From: Halobaculum sp. MBLA0147
Lineage (GTDB): Archaea; Halobacteriota; Halobacteria; Halobacteriales; Haloferacaceae
NCBI RefSeq assembly: GCF_041361345.1
Contig: NZ_JBGKAD010000001.1
Span: forward strand, 2,790,001-2,854,000
DNA length: 64,000 nt
Reading direction: 5' to 3'
The translations under genes were made by a program, and so were the position numbers. The notes under the pieces are model-generated. The model was not told the origin of the DNA. It did not search any database and saw only the letters and a list, made by a program, of their open reading frames with translations. Positions 5,449 through 34,304 of this stretch are shown here, piece after piece. The number at the start of each line of letters is the position of its first letter. Position 1 is the first letter of the stretch.

Positions 5449-7059
<1,611 letters not shown>

Positions 7060-26038: not shown

Positions 26039-26416
26039 TCAGTCCTCGACGAGAACGGCGTTGACCTGGCCCGTCTGGCCGGGGCGGGAGGTGACGCGGG
26101 CGGTGCCCTCGCTGGTCTCGATGAGCGCACCCTTCGTGACGATGTTCCGGCGAGCGTAGTTGACGTTCGCCGGGTTGTCCTCGACGTTCTCGATCTCGGC
26201 GGCGACGGTGTCGCCGTCGACGGCCACCTGCGCGGTGTCCGTCGAGAGAGCACGTACCTTCTCGCCGCCGCCACGCGTCGTCACCGTCTGGAGACGCTGC
26301 TCGCCGACGGTCGTCTCGGCCGGTTCGCGCCCACGCTGGTTCTTCTGCTTGTCGCCGGAGGGGACCCGTCGGCCACCCGTCCGCATCCGCTTGCGTCGTC
26401 CGCTCTGATCCGTCAT
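26039..26416 (-). CDS. rps8e: 30S ribosomal protein S8e
   Basis: This 125-residue archaeal/eukaryotic-type small-subunit protein has a basic N-terminus (GRRKRMRTGGRR), the conserved RTGGRR...KNQRGREPAET region, and the ending NPANVNYARRNIVTKGALIE...QTGQVNAVLV. It binds 16S rRNA during 30S assembly. It is transcribed alone and divergently from carB. A weak AT-rich stretch lies 25-31 bases upstream of ATG 26416. Confidence 0.97.
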   Translation of the reverse strand: MTDQSGRRKRMRTGGRRVPSGDKQKNQRGREPAETTVGEQRLQTVTTRGGGEKVRALSTDTAQVAVDGDTVAAEIENVEDNPANVNYARRNIVTKGALIETSEGTARVTSRPGQTGQVNAVLVED

Positions 26417-26566
26417 ACCCGTGAGAATCCGCGCCCGCCACTTGAATGACTCGAAACCCCCGGGCTGCCGTCGGCCGAGTCGGCCGTCGAGCGAGAGTGC
26501 CCAGTCTCGACGCCGACGGACCACGCCACTCATACCCCCGCGAGCGTGTCCACTCGCCCCGACGCT

Positions 26567-26583
26567 GTTACGAAATTCGTAAC
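26567..26583. promoter_or_regulatory. Perfect 8-bp-arm dyad upstream of carB (candidate operator)
   Basis: The sequence gttacgaaattcgtaac has eight perfectly complementary base pairs around one central base. It lies 32-48 bases before the carB TATA box (26615-26622), and a further tacgaat half-site lies at 26588. A dyad this long is unlikely by chance in DNA of this base composition. Its position suits an activator or repressor site for carB. Confidence 0.6.
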
Positions 26584-26614
26584 TCCCTACGAATACCGTC
26601 GCGAGTCCGCGAGA

Positions 26615-26622
26615 CTTATTAC
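26615..26622 (+). promoter_or_regulatory. carB TATA box
   Basis: The sequence cttattac lies 24-31 bases before ATG 26646. No ribosome binding site is seen, consistent with a leaderless carB transcript. Confidence 0.65.
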
Positions 26623-26645
26623 GATACACGGATCATCGCGGGACG

Positions 26646-29600
26646 ATGAACGACGGTCGCACGATCCTGCTCGTCGGCAGTGGCCCGATCCGGATCGGAC
26701 AGGCGGCGGAGTTCGACTACTCCGGGGCGCAGGCGTGTCGCGCGCTCCAGGAGGAGGGGGCGGAGGTCGTGTTGGTCAACTCCAACCCCGCGACGATCAT
26801 GACGGACCCGGAGATGGCCGACCGCGTGTACGTCGAGCCGATCACTCCGGAGTCCATCGCGGAGGTGATCGCTGCCGAGGAACCCGACGGCGTCATCGCC
26901 GGCCTGGGCGGGCAGACGGGACTCAACGTCACCGCGGAACTCGCCGAGCAGGGGGTGCTCGACGAGTACGATGTCGAGATCATGGGGACGCCGTTGGAGA
27001 CGATCTACGCGACGGAGGACCGCGACCGCTTCCGGGCACGGATGGAGGAGTTGGGCCAGCCGGTGCCCCGCTCGCGGACGATCACGGACCTCGACGAACT
27101 GGACGCGGCCGTCGACGCCGTCGGGGGACTCCCGGTGATCGTCCGGACGACGTACACACTCGGCGGCCAGGGGTCGAGTGTGGTGTACGACCGCGAGGAG
27201 TTGGCCGAGCGGGCGCGCCACGGATTGCGGCTCTCGCGCAACGGCGAGGTGATGATCACGGAGTCGATCGACGGGTGGGTAGAGTTGGAGTACGAGGTGA
27301 TGCGGGACGCCGACGACTCCTGTGTCATCGTCTGCAACATGGAGAACCTCGACCCGATGGGGATCCACACCGGGGAGTCGACGGTCGTCACCCCCTCGCA
27401 GGTGATCCCAGACGACGGTCACCAGGAGATGCGCGACGCCGCCTTGGAGGTGATCCGCGATCTCGGTATTCAGGGAGGGTGTAACATCCAGTTCGCGTGG
27501 CGCGACGACGGCACGCCGGGCGGGGAGTACCGCGTCGTCGAGGTGAACCCGCGCGTCTCGCGCTCTTCGGCGCTCGCCTCGAAGGCGACCGGCTACCCCA
27601 TCGCTCGCGTGACGGCGAAGGTGGCACTGGGCAAGCGACTCCACGAGATCACCAACGAGATCACCGGGGAGACCACGGCGGCGTTCGAGCCGGCGATCGA
27701 CTACGTCGTGACGAAGGTGCCGCGGTGGCCGATCGACAAGTTCCCCGAGACGGAGTTCGAGCTGTCGACGGCGATGAAGTCCACCGGGGAGGCGATGGCG
27801 ATCGGCCGCACCTTCGAGGAGTCACTGACGAAGGCGCTGCGTTCCAGCGAGTACGACCCCGCCGTGGACTGGGCGACGGTCGACGACGACGAGTTGCGGA
27901 GCGAGTACCTCGAACGCCCGTGTCCGGAGCGCCCGTACGCGATCTTCGAGGCGTTCGCCCGCGGGTTCGGCGTCGACGAGGTGGTCGAGGCGACCGGGAT
28001 CTACGAGTGGTACGTCGAGCGGTTCCGTCGCGTCGCGGACGCTCGCACCGACGCCGCCGGCGGCGACTTCGAGCCGGCCGCCAGCGCCGGGTTGACGAAC
28101 CGCGAGGTCGCGGCCGCGGCGGACACCGACCTCGGCGCCGTCGAGCGGGCGGTGCCGGGGCGGTCGTTCAAGCAGGTCGACACCTGTGCCGGGGAGTTCG
28201 CCGCCTCGACGCCGTACTACTACTCGGCGCGGGACCCAGAGTACCTCGTCGACGGCGGCGGAACGGCCACCCAGGGGACGGAACCCGACGGCGACGCGGC
28301 GACGGTCGACGACGCCGAGACGGACGGTACCGAGGCCACGGCGGAGTCGGCAGAGACGACACAGTTCGTCGGCCCGGCGGGCGACGAACTCCGTGTCGAC
28401 CGGGACGCCGAGAGCGTCGTCGTGGTCGGCGGCGGACCGATCCGGATCGGCCAGGGCGTGGAGTTCGACTACTGTGCGGTCCACGCCGTGCAGGCCCTGC
28501 GCGAGCAGGGGATCGACGCCCACGTGATCAACAACAACCCGGAGACGGTGTCGACGGACTACGACACCTCCGACGGGCTGTTCTTCGAGCCGCTGACGGC
28601 CGAGGAGGTCGCCGACGCGATCGAGGCGACGGACGCCGACGGCGTGATGGTCCAGTTCGGCGGCCAGACCTCCGTCGAGGTGGGCGAGCCGCTCGAAGCG
28701 GAACTCGACCGGCGCGGCCTCGACTGCGAGATCATGGGGACCGGCGTGGAGGCGATGGACCTCGCGGAGGACCGCGACCGGTTCAACCGCCTGCTCGCCG
28801 AGCGCGGGATCGCCCAGCCCGAGGGCGGCAGCGCGACCAGCGAGTCGGAGGCGCTGTCGTTGGCTCGCGAGATCGGCTACCCCTTGCTCGTCCGCCCGAG
28901 CTACGTGCTCGGCGGGCGCGCGATGGAGGTCGTCCACGACGACGACGACCTGCGGGAGTACGTCGGCGAGGCGGTGCGGGTGTCGCCGGACAAACCCATC
29001 CTCGTCGACGAGTTCCTCGACGGCGCGGTGGAACTCGACGTGGACGCGGTCGCGGACGGCGAAGACGTGCTGCTCGGTGGGATCATGGAACACGTCGAGT
29101 CGGCCGGCGTCCACTCCGGTGACTCCGCGTGTGTGATCCCACCACGGTCGTTGTCCGCGGCGACGGAACGCCGCGTCCGCGAAGTCGTCGAAGAGATCGC
29201 CGCCGCGCTCGACACGGTCGGCCTGTTGAACGTCCAGTTGGCCATTCGGGAGACGGACGACGACGGGCCGGGGGAGGTGTACGTACTGGAGGCGAACCCG
29301 CGGTCCTCGCGGACGGTGCCGTTCGTCTCGAAGGCGACGGGCGTCCCGATCGCCAAACTGGCGGCGCGGGTGATGGCCGGCGAGTCGCTGGCGTCCATCG
29401 ACGCGACCGAGCAGGTGCCCGAGCGGCACAGCGTGAAGGAGGTCGTGCTCCCGTTCGACCGGCTGCCGGAGGCGGACCCGCGGCTCGGCCCGGAGATGAA
29501 GTCCACCGGCGAGGTGATGGGTACCGCCGAGACGTTCGGGATGGCCTACGAGAAGGCCCAACGCGCCGCCGGGATGGCCGCCCCCGACGAGGGGACGGCG

Positions 29601-29909
29601 GTGGTCGAGTTCGCCGACGTGGGGACCGAGGCCGACAGCGAGCGCCTGCGGACGGCGTTCGCCGACCACTACGAGTTGGTCTCCCCCGAAGACGTGCCGG
29701 CGGCGCTCCGGGAGGGGACGGTCGACTTCCTCGTGAGCGACGACCGCGACGGGCTGCGGGCGGCCGTCGAGGAGGAGGTGCCGTACGTCTCGACGCCGGA
29801 GGCCGCCGAGGCGGTTCTCGAGGGACTCGACGCGCGCGGCGACGACCTCGACACGCAGGCGCTGGGCGACCGGCCTCGCCGGCAGGTCCGGTGGGGCGCG
29901 GACGACTGA
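26646..29909 (+). CDS. carB: Carbamoyl-phosphate synthase large subunit
   Basis: This 1087-residue enzyme makes carbamoyl phosphate from ammonia (supplied by CarA from glutamine), bicarbonate and two ATP, for pyrimidine and arginine synthesis. The two homologous ATP-grasp halves are complete: GSGPIRIGQAAEFDYSG near residue 12 and GGGPIRIGQGVEFDYCA near 597. An Ala/Asp/Thr-rich linker lies at about 540-575. The C-terminal MGS-like regulatory domain (about 975-1087) is present but acidic and divergent. carA is not in the window. A candidate operator lies upstream. Confidence 0.98.
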   Translation: MNDGRTILLVGSGPIRIGQAAEFDYSGAQACRALQEEGAEVVLVNSNPATIMTDPEMADRVYVEPITPESIAEVIAAEEPDGVIAGLGGQTGLNVTAELAEQGVLDEYDVEIMGTPLETIYATEDRDRFRARMEELGQPVPRSRTITDLDELDAAVDAVGGLPVIVRTTYTLGGQGSSVVYDREELAERARHGLRLSRNGEVMITESIDGWVELEYEVMRDADDSCVIVCNMENLDPMGIHTGESTVVTPSQVIPDDGHQEMRDAALEVIRDLGIQGGCNIQFAWRDDGTPGGEYRVVEVNPRVSRSSALASKATGYPIARVTAKVALGKRLHEITNEITGETTAAFEPAIDYVVTKVPRWPIDKFPETEFELSTAMKSTGEAMAIGRTFEESLTKALRSSEYDPAVDWATVDDDELRSEYLERPCPERPYAIFEAFARGFGVDEVVEATGIYEWYVERFRRVADARTDAAGGDFEPAASAGLTNREVAAAADTDLGAVERAVPGRSFKQVDTCAGEFAASTPYYYSARDPEYLVDGGGTATQGTEPDGDAATVDDAETDGTEATAESAETTQFVGPAGDELRVDRDAESVVVVGGGPIRIGQGVEFDYCAVHAVQALREQGIDAHVINNNPETVSTDYDTSDGLFFEPLTAEEVADAIEATDADGVMVQFGGQTSVEVGEPLEAELDRRGLDCEIMGTGVEAMDLAEDRDRFNRLLAERGIAQPEGGSATSESEALSLAREIGYPLLVRPSYVLGGRAMEVVHDDDDLREYVGEAVRVSPDKPILVDEFLDGAVELDVDAVADGEDVLLGGIMEHVESAGVHSGDSACVIPPRSLSAATERRVREVVEEIAAALDTVGLLNVQLAIRETDDDGPGEVYVLEANPRSSRTVPFVSKATGVPIAKLAARVMAGESLASIDATEQVPERHSVKEVVLPFDRLPEADPRLGPEMKSTGEVMGTAETFGMAYEKAQRAAGMAAPDEGTAVVEFADVGTEADSERLRTAFADHYELVSPEDVPAALREGTVDFLVSDDRDGLRAAVEEEVPYVSTPEAAEAVLEGLDARGDDLDTQALGDRPRRQVRWGADD

Positions 29910-30089: not shown

Positions 30090-30566
30090 ATGAGGCGCGA
30101 CTACTTCGAACTGGACGTCGACAGCGTCGACTGGGTCGAGGAGGGCGACGACCCGCGGCGGCCACACGTCTACATCGACTTCCACGGCCCCGAGGACCTG
30201 TTGCGCGACCGACTCACGGACCCGGACGGCGAGCTCTTGGACACCGAGGAGACGGACGTGGCGTTCCGGCTCCAGGAGCCACGCGACGACAACCCCGAGG
30301 CGACCGGCGTCGTCGGCGTGACCAACCGGATCACCGGCGAGTTCATCGTCGAGCTGAACGAGGAGGCGGACGACGTGTTGCGGTTCATCGAGGCAGCACG
30401 CGAGTACGGCCGCAGCGTCGACGCCGACGGCGGCCAGTACGAGGTCGAGATCGCCGTCGACGGCGACCGTCTCGTCGCCTACGAGAAGGAGACGTTCCTC
30501 GTGTACGACGCCGAGGGGAACCTCCTGCGCACGGAGAGTCTCATCCCCTCCGGCGTCGAACTCTGA
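30090..30566 (+). CDS. DUF5793-like protein
   Basis: This 158-residue acidic cytoplasmic protein begins MRRDYFELDVDSVDW. It contains EETDVAFRLQEP, GVVGVTNRITGEFIVELN and YEKETFLVYDAEGNLLR, and it ends SLIPSGVEL. I recognise this pattern as the haloarchaeal family DUF5793, near full length. No catalytic motif or membrane segment is seen, and the function is unknown. A tacttac box lies 28-34 bases before ATG 30090. Confidence 0.87.
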   Translation: MRRDYFELDVDSVDWVEEGDDPRRPHVYIDFHGPEDLLRDRLTDPDGELLDTEETDVAFRLQEPRDDNPEATGVVGVTNRITGEFIVELNEEADDVLRFIEAAREYGRSVDADGGQYEVEIAVDGDRLVAYEKETFLVYDAEGNLLRTESLIPSGVEL

Positions 30567-33017: not shown

Positions 33018-34304
33018 TCAGTACCTCCTTTGATTTGAAGAGCCCAAATTCAGGTCGATCTCAGTCTGCTCGTCGATACGGCGCATGACGAGATCGGCAA
33101 TCTGTTCGATACTCTCTTCGGGGATGGCGGCTTCGGGGCCGCCTTGCGCCCGTTCGGCTTCGGACTTGGCTCCCTCGATCGCGACCTGCCCGGCTGTCCC
33201 GACGGCTGCGCCGATGCCCGCACCGGGAGGCCCGCCGACGAGTGCGCCGAGCATCGCTCCGAGAACGGCGAACGACCCTTTCCCTGTATCGGCCAGCATA
33301 TTGAGGAGGGTGTCCATCTCGTCTGGTCCCTCGACATCGACATCTGCTTCTTCGAGTTGGTCTCTGAGCGCTTCCCCGTCGAAGTGTTCTGTGCCGATCT
33401 CGCCGTTCGGCCCGAAGCCCGTCTGTTGCCGCTGAACGTGAATCTCGGTGTCGGAGAGGCGCTGAATCCCGATATCGCCACCGGACATCACGCGTCGTGC
33501 GGTCTCCTCGGCTTCCCGCTCCAGTTCGGGATTGGGGTCAATCTCCAACTGCACGTCGTCCTGTGGAAGCATCGACAACGCGCCACCCGTTTGCTGGCGG
33601 ACGTGTGCGAGTTCGTGCGCCAAGACGTGCTGGCCCTCCGCAGACTCCGGATCGTACTCACCAGCCGCGAACGCGACGTGGTTGCCGACAGTGAACGCTC
33701 GGGCGTCGATGGCGTCCGCCGCCGCCGCGGCTCTCGGGCCGGTGTGAATCCGCACGTCACCCAGTGAGTCGCCCATCCGCTCTTCGACCGCGCGCTGAAT
33801 CGAGGCGTCGAGCGGCCGACCGGGCGAAGAGATCACCTCGCGGACGGCGTCGGGGACGCTCGTACGGCCGGCGGGTTCGATCTCTTCGGTCGCTTCGCGA
33901 CTCCGTTGGAGCGACTTCTTGTTGCGTTTCTCGACGTTCCACGGAATGGGTGTATCGCGACGTTCGCGGAAGCGATCGAGAGTGAGGTGGTTCTCCATCG
34001 CGTCGGTGGGGACACCCTCGTCGATCCAGTCGTGGACCTGTGGGCCCCACCGTTCTTCGATCCGCATCATCTGGCGGACCTCACCGTCGTCTTCGAAGTC
34101 AGTGTCGTACCGCTCGCGTGCCTGTGCGATGCTCAGCTTCCCGACGATGTCTGTCTCCATGTCGACGGTGGCTCGGTACGGGTCCGTGTCGGTCGATCGC
34201 CGGTCTCGGCCGCCGGACTGCCGGTCTCGCTCCGAGTCTCCGTCCCGGTCACCGTCGCCGGACTCTCGCCTCTCTCGTGCTCGTGAGGAACTCCAGTAGC
34301 CCAT
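33018..34304 (-). CDS. DUF4157 (eCIS core domain) metalloprotease-like protein
   Basis: The 428-residue protein has an Arg/Asp/Ser-rich N-terminus (1-45). A helical region (50-150) precedes the DUF4157 domain (about 160-245): GRPLDASIQRAVEERMGDSLG, VRIHTGPRAAAAADAIDARA, VAFAAGEYDP and the zinc-type HELAH. Pfam calls this the 'eCIS core domain', found in proteins loaded by extracellular contractile injection systems. Near residues 340-375 is a glycine-rich hydrophobic stretch (LGAMLGALVGGPPGAGIGAA) that could insert in a membrane. The C-terminus is charged. It is first in the minus-strand run and divergent from the AAA+ gene. Confidence 0.9.
   Translation of the reverse strand: MGYWSSSRARERRESGDGDRDGDSERDRQSGGRDRRSTDTDPYRATVDMETDIVGKLSIAQARERYDTDFEDDGEVRQMMRIEERWGPQVHDWIDEGVPTDAMENHLTLDRFRERRDTPIPWNVEKRNKKSLQRSREATEEIEPAGRTSVPDAVREVISSPGRPLDASIQRAVEERMGDSLGDVRIHTGPRAAAAADAIDARAFTVGNHVAFAAGEYDPESAEGQHVLAHELAHVRQQTGGALSMLPQDDVQLEIDPNPELEREAEETARRVMSGGDIGIQRLSDTEIHVQRQQTGFGPNGEIGTEHFDGEALRDQLEEADVDVEGPDEMDTLLNMLADTGKGSFAVLGAMLGALVGGPPGAGIGAAVGTAGQVAIEGAKSEAERAQGGPEAAIPEESIEQIADLVMRRIDEQTEIDLNLGSSNQRRY
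33023..33028 (-). promoter_or_regulatory. Shine-Dalgarno site GGAGGT for the 323-residue gene
   Basis: On the minus strand, ggaggt lies 6 bases before ATG 33016, inside the last codons of the DUF4157 gene. It is one of few strong ribosome binding sites in a window dominated by leaderless starts, and it shows that the downstream gene is translated from a shared mRNA. Confidence 0.8.

Follow-up and report, generated by a model that had tools for sequence, protein, structure and literature searches.

A putative Trh3-type operator array upstream of carB in Halobaculum and its conservation with the trh3/carA locus among Halobacteriales

The closest described system to the locus examined here is that of Trh3 (VNG1816G) of Halobacterium salinarum, a regulator whose gene adjoins carA and which was reported by Ashworth et al. 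2014 (PMC4177876). ChIP in that organism showed Trh3 to bind the trh3, carA and carB promoters, and motifs at carA/trh3 and carB were found to be conserved in 18 haloarchaea. Expression of both carA and carB correlates weakly and positively with trh3 (PMC4177876). The main text of that paper mentions neither pyrB nor spacing, and part of the array described below may already be visible in its supplementary figures. Plaisier et al. 2014 predict arginine, glutamine or lysine as the ligand of Trh3, and deletion of trh3 had no effect on growth in the reported test (PMC4236453). Given this prior description, the circuit presented here is one already known, found in a genome not previously reported, and the remark in the first-pass annotation of this DNA that it knew of no described regulator for the site is wrong, as the carA-linked Lrp/AsnC protein Trh3 has been placed at carB by ChIP (PMC4177876). 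What is added here is the resolution of a three-dyad array with a joint shift to a 19-bp spacing, a site at pyrB that appears to be lineage-specific and the joint loss of operator and regulator.

The window, meaning the whole stretch of DNA that was analysed, is 64 kb in length (C1:2790001-2854000) and belongs to the 4.29 Mb genome of a haloarchaeon (G000). The first-pass annotation had reported a perfect 17-base dyad with eight-base arms upstream of the carB TATA box, and this was confirmed (dyad 1, Table 1), the two arms flanking a single base. The half-site tacgaat that it had also reported at 26588 is present, but it is the left arm of dyad 2, which is degraded, within a multi-dyad array. 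The centre of dyad 1 lies 41 bp from the TATA-like TTATTA (26616), and the carB promoter appears to be of the leaderless type. Perfect dyads of the 8+1+8 form number five in the window against a mean of 4.8 expected (30 dinucleotide shuffles), and the bare presence of such a dyad is therefore at chance level. When the sequence of dyad 1 was searched for with up to three mismatches, the only match in the window was this place, with 0.04 matches expected. The significance of the carB dyad consequently stems from its other genomic locations and its conservation, and not from its perfection alone.

Table 1. Features of the carB region (positions in the window) and of the regulator/carA locus (positions in locus L001)
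Feature	Sequence	Position	Strand	Remarks
Dyad 1	GTTACGAAATTCGTAAC	26567-26583	.	Core TTACGAAATTCGTAA at 26568-26582; centre 71 bp 5' of carB ATG
Dyad 2	CTACGAATACCGTCG	26587-26601	.	Degraded; left arm at 26588-26594
Dyad 3	TTACGATACACGGAT	26619-26633	.	7/8 core letters; 51 bp from dyad 1; overlaps TATA box
carB TATA-like element	CTTATTACGAT	26615-26625	+	About 30 bp before ATG
carB		26646-29909	+	Carbamoyl-phosphate synthase large subunit, 1087 aa; the regulated gene
rps8e		26042-26413	-	Ribosomal protein S8e; divergent from carB
DUF5793 protein gene		30090-30566	+	Just 3' of carB
eCIS core domain protein gene		33018-34304	-	428 aa
Regulator gene, L001		1469-1056	-	Shares promoter region with carA
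carA, L001		from 1566	+	Shares promoter region with the regulator gene

Among the neighbouring genes, rps8e shares the operator-bearing intergenic region with carB. The gene downstream of carB encodes a protein of unknown function (PF19106, 9.8e-71). Further downstream, a protein with an eCIS core domain (PF13699, 1e-30) is encoded, possibly as part of an extracellular contractile injection system locus.

Pattern searches of the G000 genome were performed with the 15-mer core TTACGAAATTCGTAA and with a relaxed, symmetric form of it, TTWCGANNNTCGWAA. The 15-mer occurs exactly at two places, namely at carB and at C1:2736687, with all other matches having at least three mismatches. The latter copy sits between the members of a divergent pair formed by an Lrp/AsnC-type regulator gene (-) and carA (+). 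A near-match upstream of eIF6 (L004), with three mismatches to the 15-mer, was set aside as chance. Three exact matches to the relaxed pattern were obtained in G000, at carB, at trh3/carA and 5' of pyrB, the gene for aspartate carbamoyltransferase (TTTCGAGGATCGAAA at C1:2724813); read backwards as a control, it gave zero matches genome-wide. A megablast comparison with plasmids gave no useful yield. The motif positions in this genome thus mark the regulator gene trh3 together with carA, carB and pyrB, whose products are the enzymes that open pyrimidine synthesis, and no random genes were found behind them. As pyrB is the only further gene with a site in this organism, the circuit is taken to govern steps one and two of the pathway. 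The first-pass suggestion of a pyrimidine- or arginine-linked operator is accordingly well supported as regards pyrimidine (carbamoyl phosphate); for arginine, still a published candidate ligand, G000 holds no supporting sites.

The regulator is a 137-aa protein of the Lrp/AsnC (feast/famine) family, encoded 80 kb from carB and divergently from carA (Table 1). It possesses an N-terminal AsnC-type HTH domain (PF13404, 63.1 bits) and a C-terminal AsnC/RAM ligand domain (PF01037, 51 bits), proteins of this class being about 140-150 aa in length, and its closest solved structures include archaeal Lrp proteins. Its gene is divergent from carA and one motif is common to trh3/carA and carB, as expected of a Trh3 circuit. 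Based on carA synteny, family and motif, the protein appears to be the orthologue of H. salinarum Trh3 (VNG1816G). At the trh3/carA locus, dyad 1 overlaps the predicted promoter of trh3, dyad 2 abuts the carA TATA box and dyad 3 covers the carA start codon. Judging from these sequence features, the carB dyad is very probably a Trh3-type operator bound by the Trh3 orthologue of Halobaculum, with dyad 1 strongly predicted to be the primary operator of the Trh3/Lrp type.

Comparison with the carB upstream regions of relatives showed the dyad to be conserved. Within the family, a site with at most two mismatches was identified in 146 of 148 genomes, with the reversed control pattern present in few, and both the regulator and carB were found in all 129 high-quality genomes (129/129 each). 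With a matrix trained solely on 107 trh3/carA operators, 131 upstream regions of carB from the order were scanned. A site whose score passes the 99% level set by dinucleotide shuffles was recognised in 119 of these, counts which do not represent independent events as many of the genomes are close relatives. The training set held no carB data, and thus the carB site was predicted independently of carB. A distance of exactly 41 bp separates the TATA box from the centre of the matrix hit in most cases. In genus g28, a match recurring some 4 kb from trh3 (G084:C15:23449) was rejected as it lies within a coding region. Almost all Halobacteriales have the circuit, including those with widely separated carA and carB.

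The core TNCGANNNTCGNA was compared with the carB and carA promoters at successive offsets and was seen to recur; the percentages that follow count sequences with at least six of its eight letters. A peak at +20 is present in 90% of carB and 54% of carA sequences; a further peak occurs at +51 in 91% of carB sequences and at +51 and +52 in 37% and 62% of carA sequences, respectively. Both promoters thus carry three dyads on one face of the DNA, with offsets of 0, about +20 and about +51/52. The offsets of +20 and +51 correspond to about two and five helical turns, and a spacing of two or three helical turns is typical for archaeal Lrp proteins (PMC2995911), as is the recurrence of a core at several sites seen here in both promoters. 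The TATA box is about 14 bp closer in carA than in carB and yet the two offsets are the same, which argues that the array is not simply a by-product of promoter conservation. In the window the centre of dyad 2 lies 19 bp from that of dyad 1, in place of the 20 bp of most relatives. This first spacing of 19 bp was found only in genera g1 (that of the window) and g17, and at both carB and carA, the two spacings of g17 having been read in two different genomes. Outside these genera it is 20 bp at carB and carA in every genome in which both were read. As g1 and g17 are not sisters in the regulator tree, the spacing has probably shifted jointly at carB and carA twice, the alternative being a single origin.

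The matrix was also applied to 70 pyrB upstream regions of Haloferacaceae. In 21 of these, from 10 genera, it gave a site that exceeds the 99% null, in every case centred 98-109 bp 5' of the start codon. Scores peak in genus g2, and the match in G029 is exact; a third site seen in G029 and in genus g5 was resolved as that of pyrB. The site of G000 itself is weak (13.5 versus a 99% null of 9.8), and it was not seen in the three other genomes of the same genus. Other families, of which a partial sample was covered, yielded only sporadic pyrB sites and nothing comparable. The three-dyad arrangement of carA and carB was sought at pyrB and not found, the gene having a single site located far upstream of its TATA box. 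With moderate confidence, the pyrB site is considered a lineage-specific extension of the regulon.

Natural losses offer a further view of the circuit. Twelve of the 131 carB regions are without the site: in nine no regulator was found and in three it is diverged. The former comprise genus g4 (G003, G031 and G051), G156 (98% complete, single contig), the reduced f2 genomes G148, G164 and G177 and the incomplete genomes G173 and G191; the latter are G155, G157 and G170 of families f9 and f11, with a regulator of 58-61% identity. In the carB promoters of g4, f2 and G156 the dyads are gone and CTTATTA is kept, and no comparable site exists at their carA loci (best locus score at most 12.7 versus 29.3). 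As these regulator-less genomes lose the non-TATA letters of dyad 3 while keeping CTTATTA, a role for dyad 3 of carB separate from the TATA box is supported. From these sequences, operator and regulator appear to be kept or lost together. Genomes G130, G227 and G233 (61-70% complete) have the site with no regulator detected, which is read as assembly gaps.

In the early-branching families f9 and f11 (carB upstream regions L289, L290 and L291), the carB operator is absent where Trh3 is of 58-61% identity, and trh3 of G157 has a near-exact site of its own. Because carB of these families is without a site while trh3 of G157 retains one, it is suggested that carB entered the regulon later or dropped out of it in this case. 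Where the gap between trh3 and carA is enlarged (L118, L120 and L129), each gene has a separate copy (at 5785 and 5955 in L118), and G014 possesses a second exact copy 3 kb away (C20:42625 and 45630), an arrangement that would fit duplication of the shared operator upon separation of the trh3 and carA promoters.

The geometry of the array makes cooperative, same-face binding of Trh3 likely. The array would be bound cooperatively by two or three dimers of Trh3 or by a single higher oligomer, and Trh3 so bound may bend or wrap the promoter. Since the dyads lie over or against the TATA box, the start codon and the trh3 promoter, full occupancy should block TBP/TFB or the polymerase. Occupancy would be set by a RAM-domain ligand that signals a sufficient supply of nitrogen or pyrimidine, and the unlinked carA, carB and trh3 would in this way be coordinated, as would pyrB in some lineages. 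The best guess for the sign of regulation, held with modest confidence, is thus repression by covering of the promoter, favoured over activation because of the positions of the dyads at the carB, carA and trh3 promoters. More tentatively, Trh3 could be a dedicated pyrimidine-pathway regulator in Haloferacaceae, with a fixed-geometry three-dimer array, unlinked carA and carB and a single-site pyrB in part of the family; it might respond to a pyrimidine- or carbamoyl-phosphate-related signal beyond arginine, lysine and glutamine, its operator spacing co-evolving with the regulator across promoters.

Activation by the same regulator is a real possibility, if not the expected outcome. TBP would then be recruited in a Ptr2-like manner by dimers that occupy dyads 1 and 2, on the 5' side of the BRE, dyad 3 being secondary or TATA-related. 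Such a role would suit the distance to the TATA box that is fixed in most genomes, the constrained position just 5' of the BRE at which archaeal Lrp activators bind (PMC2995911), the weak positive correlation of carA and carB with trh3 mentioned above (PMC4177876) and the remoteness of the pyrB site from its TATA box. It sits poorly with carA, where the array geometry is kept despite the closer TATA box so that dyad 2 abuts the TATA box and dyad 3 covers the start codon, and with the overlap of dyad 1 and the predicted trh3 promoter. Binding of the site by a different regulator, be it ArgR-like, PyrR-like or another Lrp paralogue, is improbable: several FFRPs of H. salinarum do share promoters and have similar motifs (PMC4236453), but the site is found at the trh3 gene itself and vanishes with it, and Trh3 ChIP covers both carA and carB in H. 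salinarum (PMC4177876). That the site serves the divergent rps8e and not carB is very improbable; the dyad does lie in their shared intergenic region, about 150 bp from rps8e, but it is positioned relative to the carB TATA box across 131 genomes and the remaining sites are at carA and pyrB. A functionless chance palindrome, for which the chance-level frequency of perfect dyads in the window might speak, is hardly credible when sequence and position are conserved across the order and the site is absent where the regulator is absent.

Under the preferred reading of a Trh3-type operator that probably acts in repression, an unannotated palindrome is tied to a published, little-characterised archaeal regulator. 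For studies of how operator spacing is read by archaeal Lrp oligomers, suitable test material is provided by the conserved array, by its concerted shift of one base and by the losses found in nature. Sa-Lrp of Sulfolobus acidocaldarius resembles the present case in that its gene adjoins the pyrimidine operon and the protein binds the promoters of this operon; it differs in being a weakly binding, glutamine-responsive global regulator (PMC3584215). Ptr2 of Methanocaldococcus jannaschii is likewise of the Lrp family and uses dyad pairs whose place 5' of the BRE/TATA is fixed, but it is a shown activator of other genes, whereas here one dyad overlaps the TATA box. The autoregulated Ss-LrpB of Sulfolobus solfataricus has three same-face dyads at two- and three-turn spacing in the regulator's own promoter; targets and organism differ, and the likeness is one of sequence geometry. 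The Trh3 circuit of H. salinarum has in common with that described here a carA-linked Lrp/FFRP regulator, a conserved motif at carA/trh3 and carB, autoregulation and carA and carB that do not form one operon. In H. salinarum carB is adjacent to trh3/carA, unlike the 80 kb that separates them here, and to that circuit the present locus adds the pyrB site and the resolved three-dyad array with its spacing.
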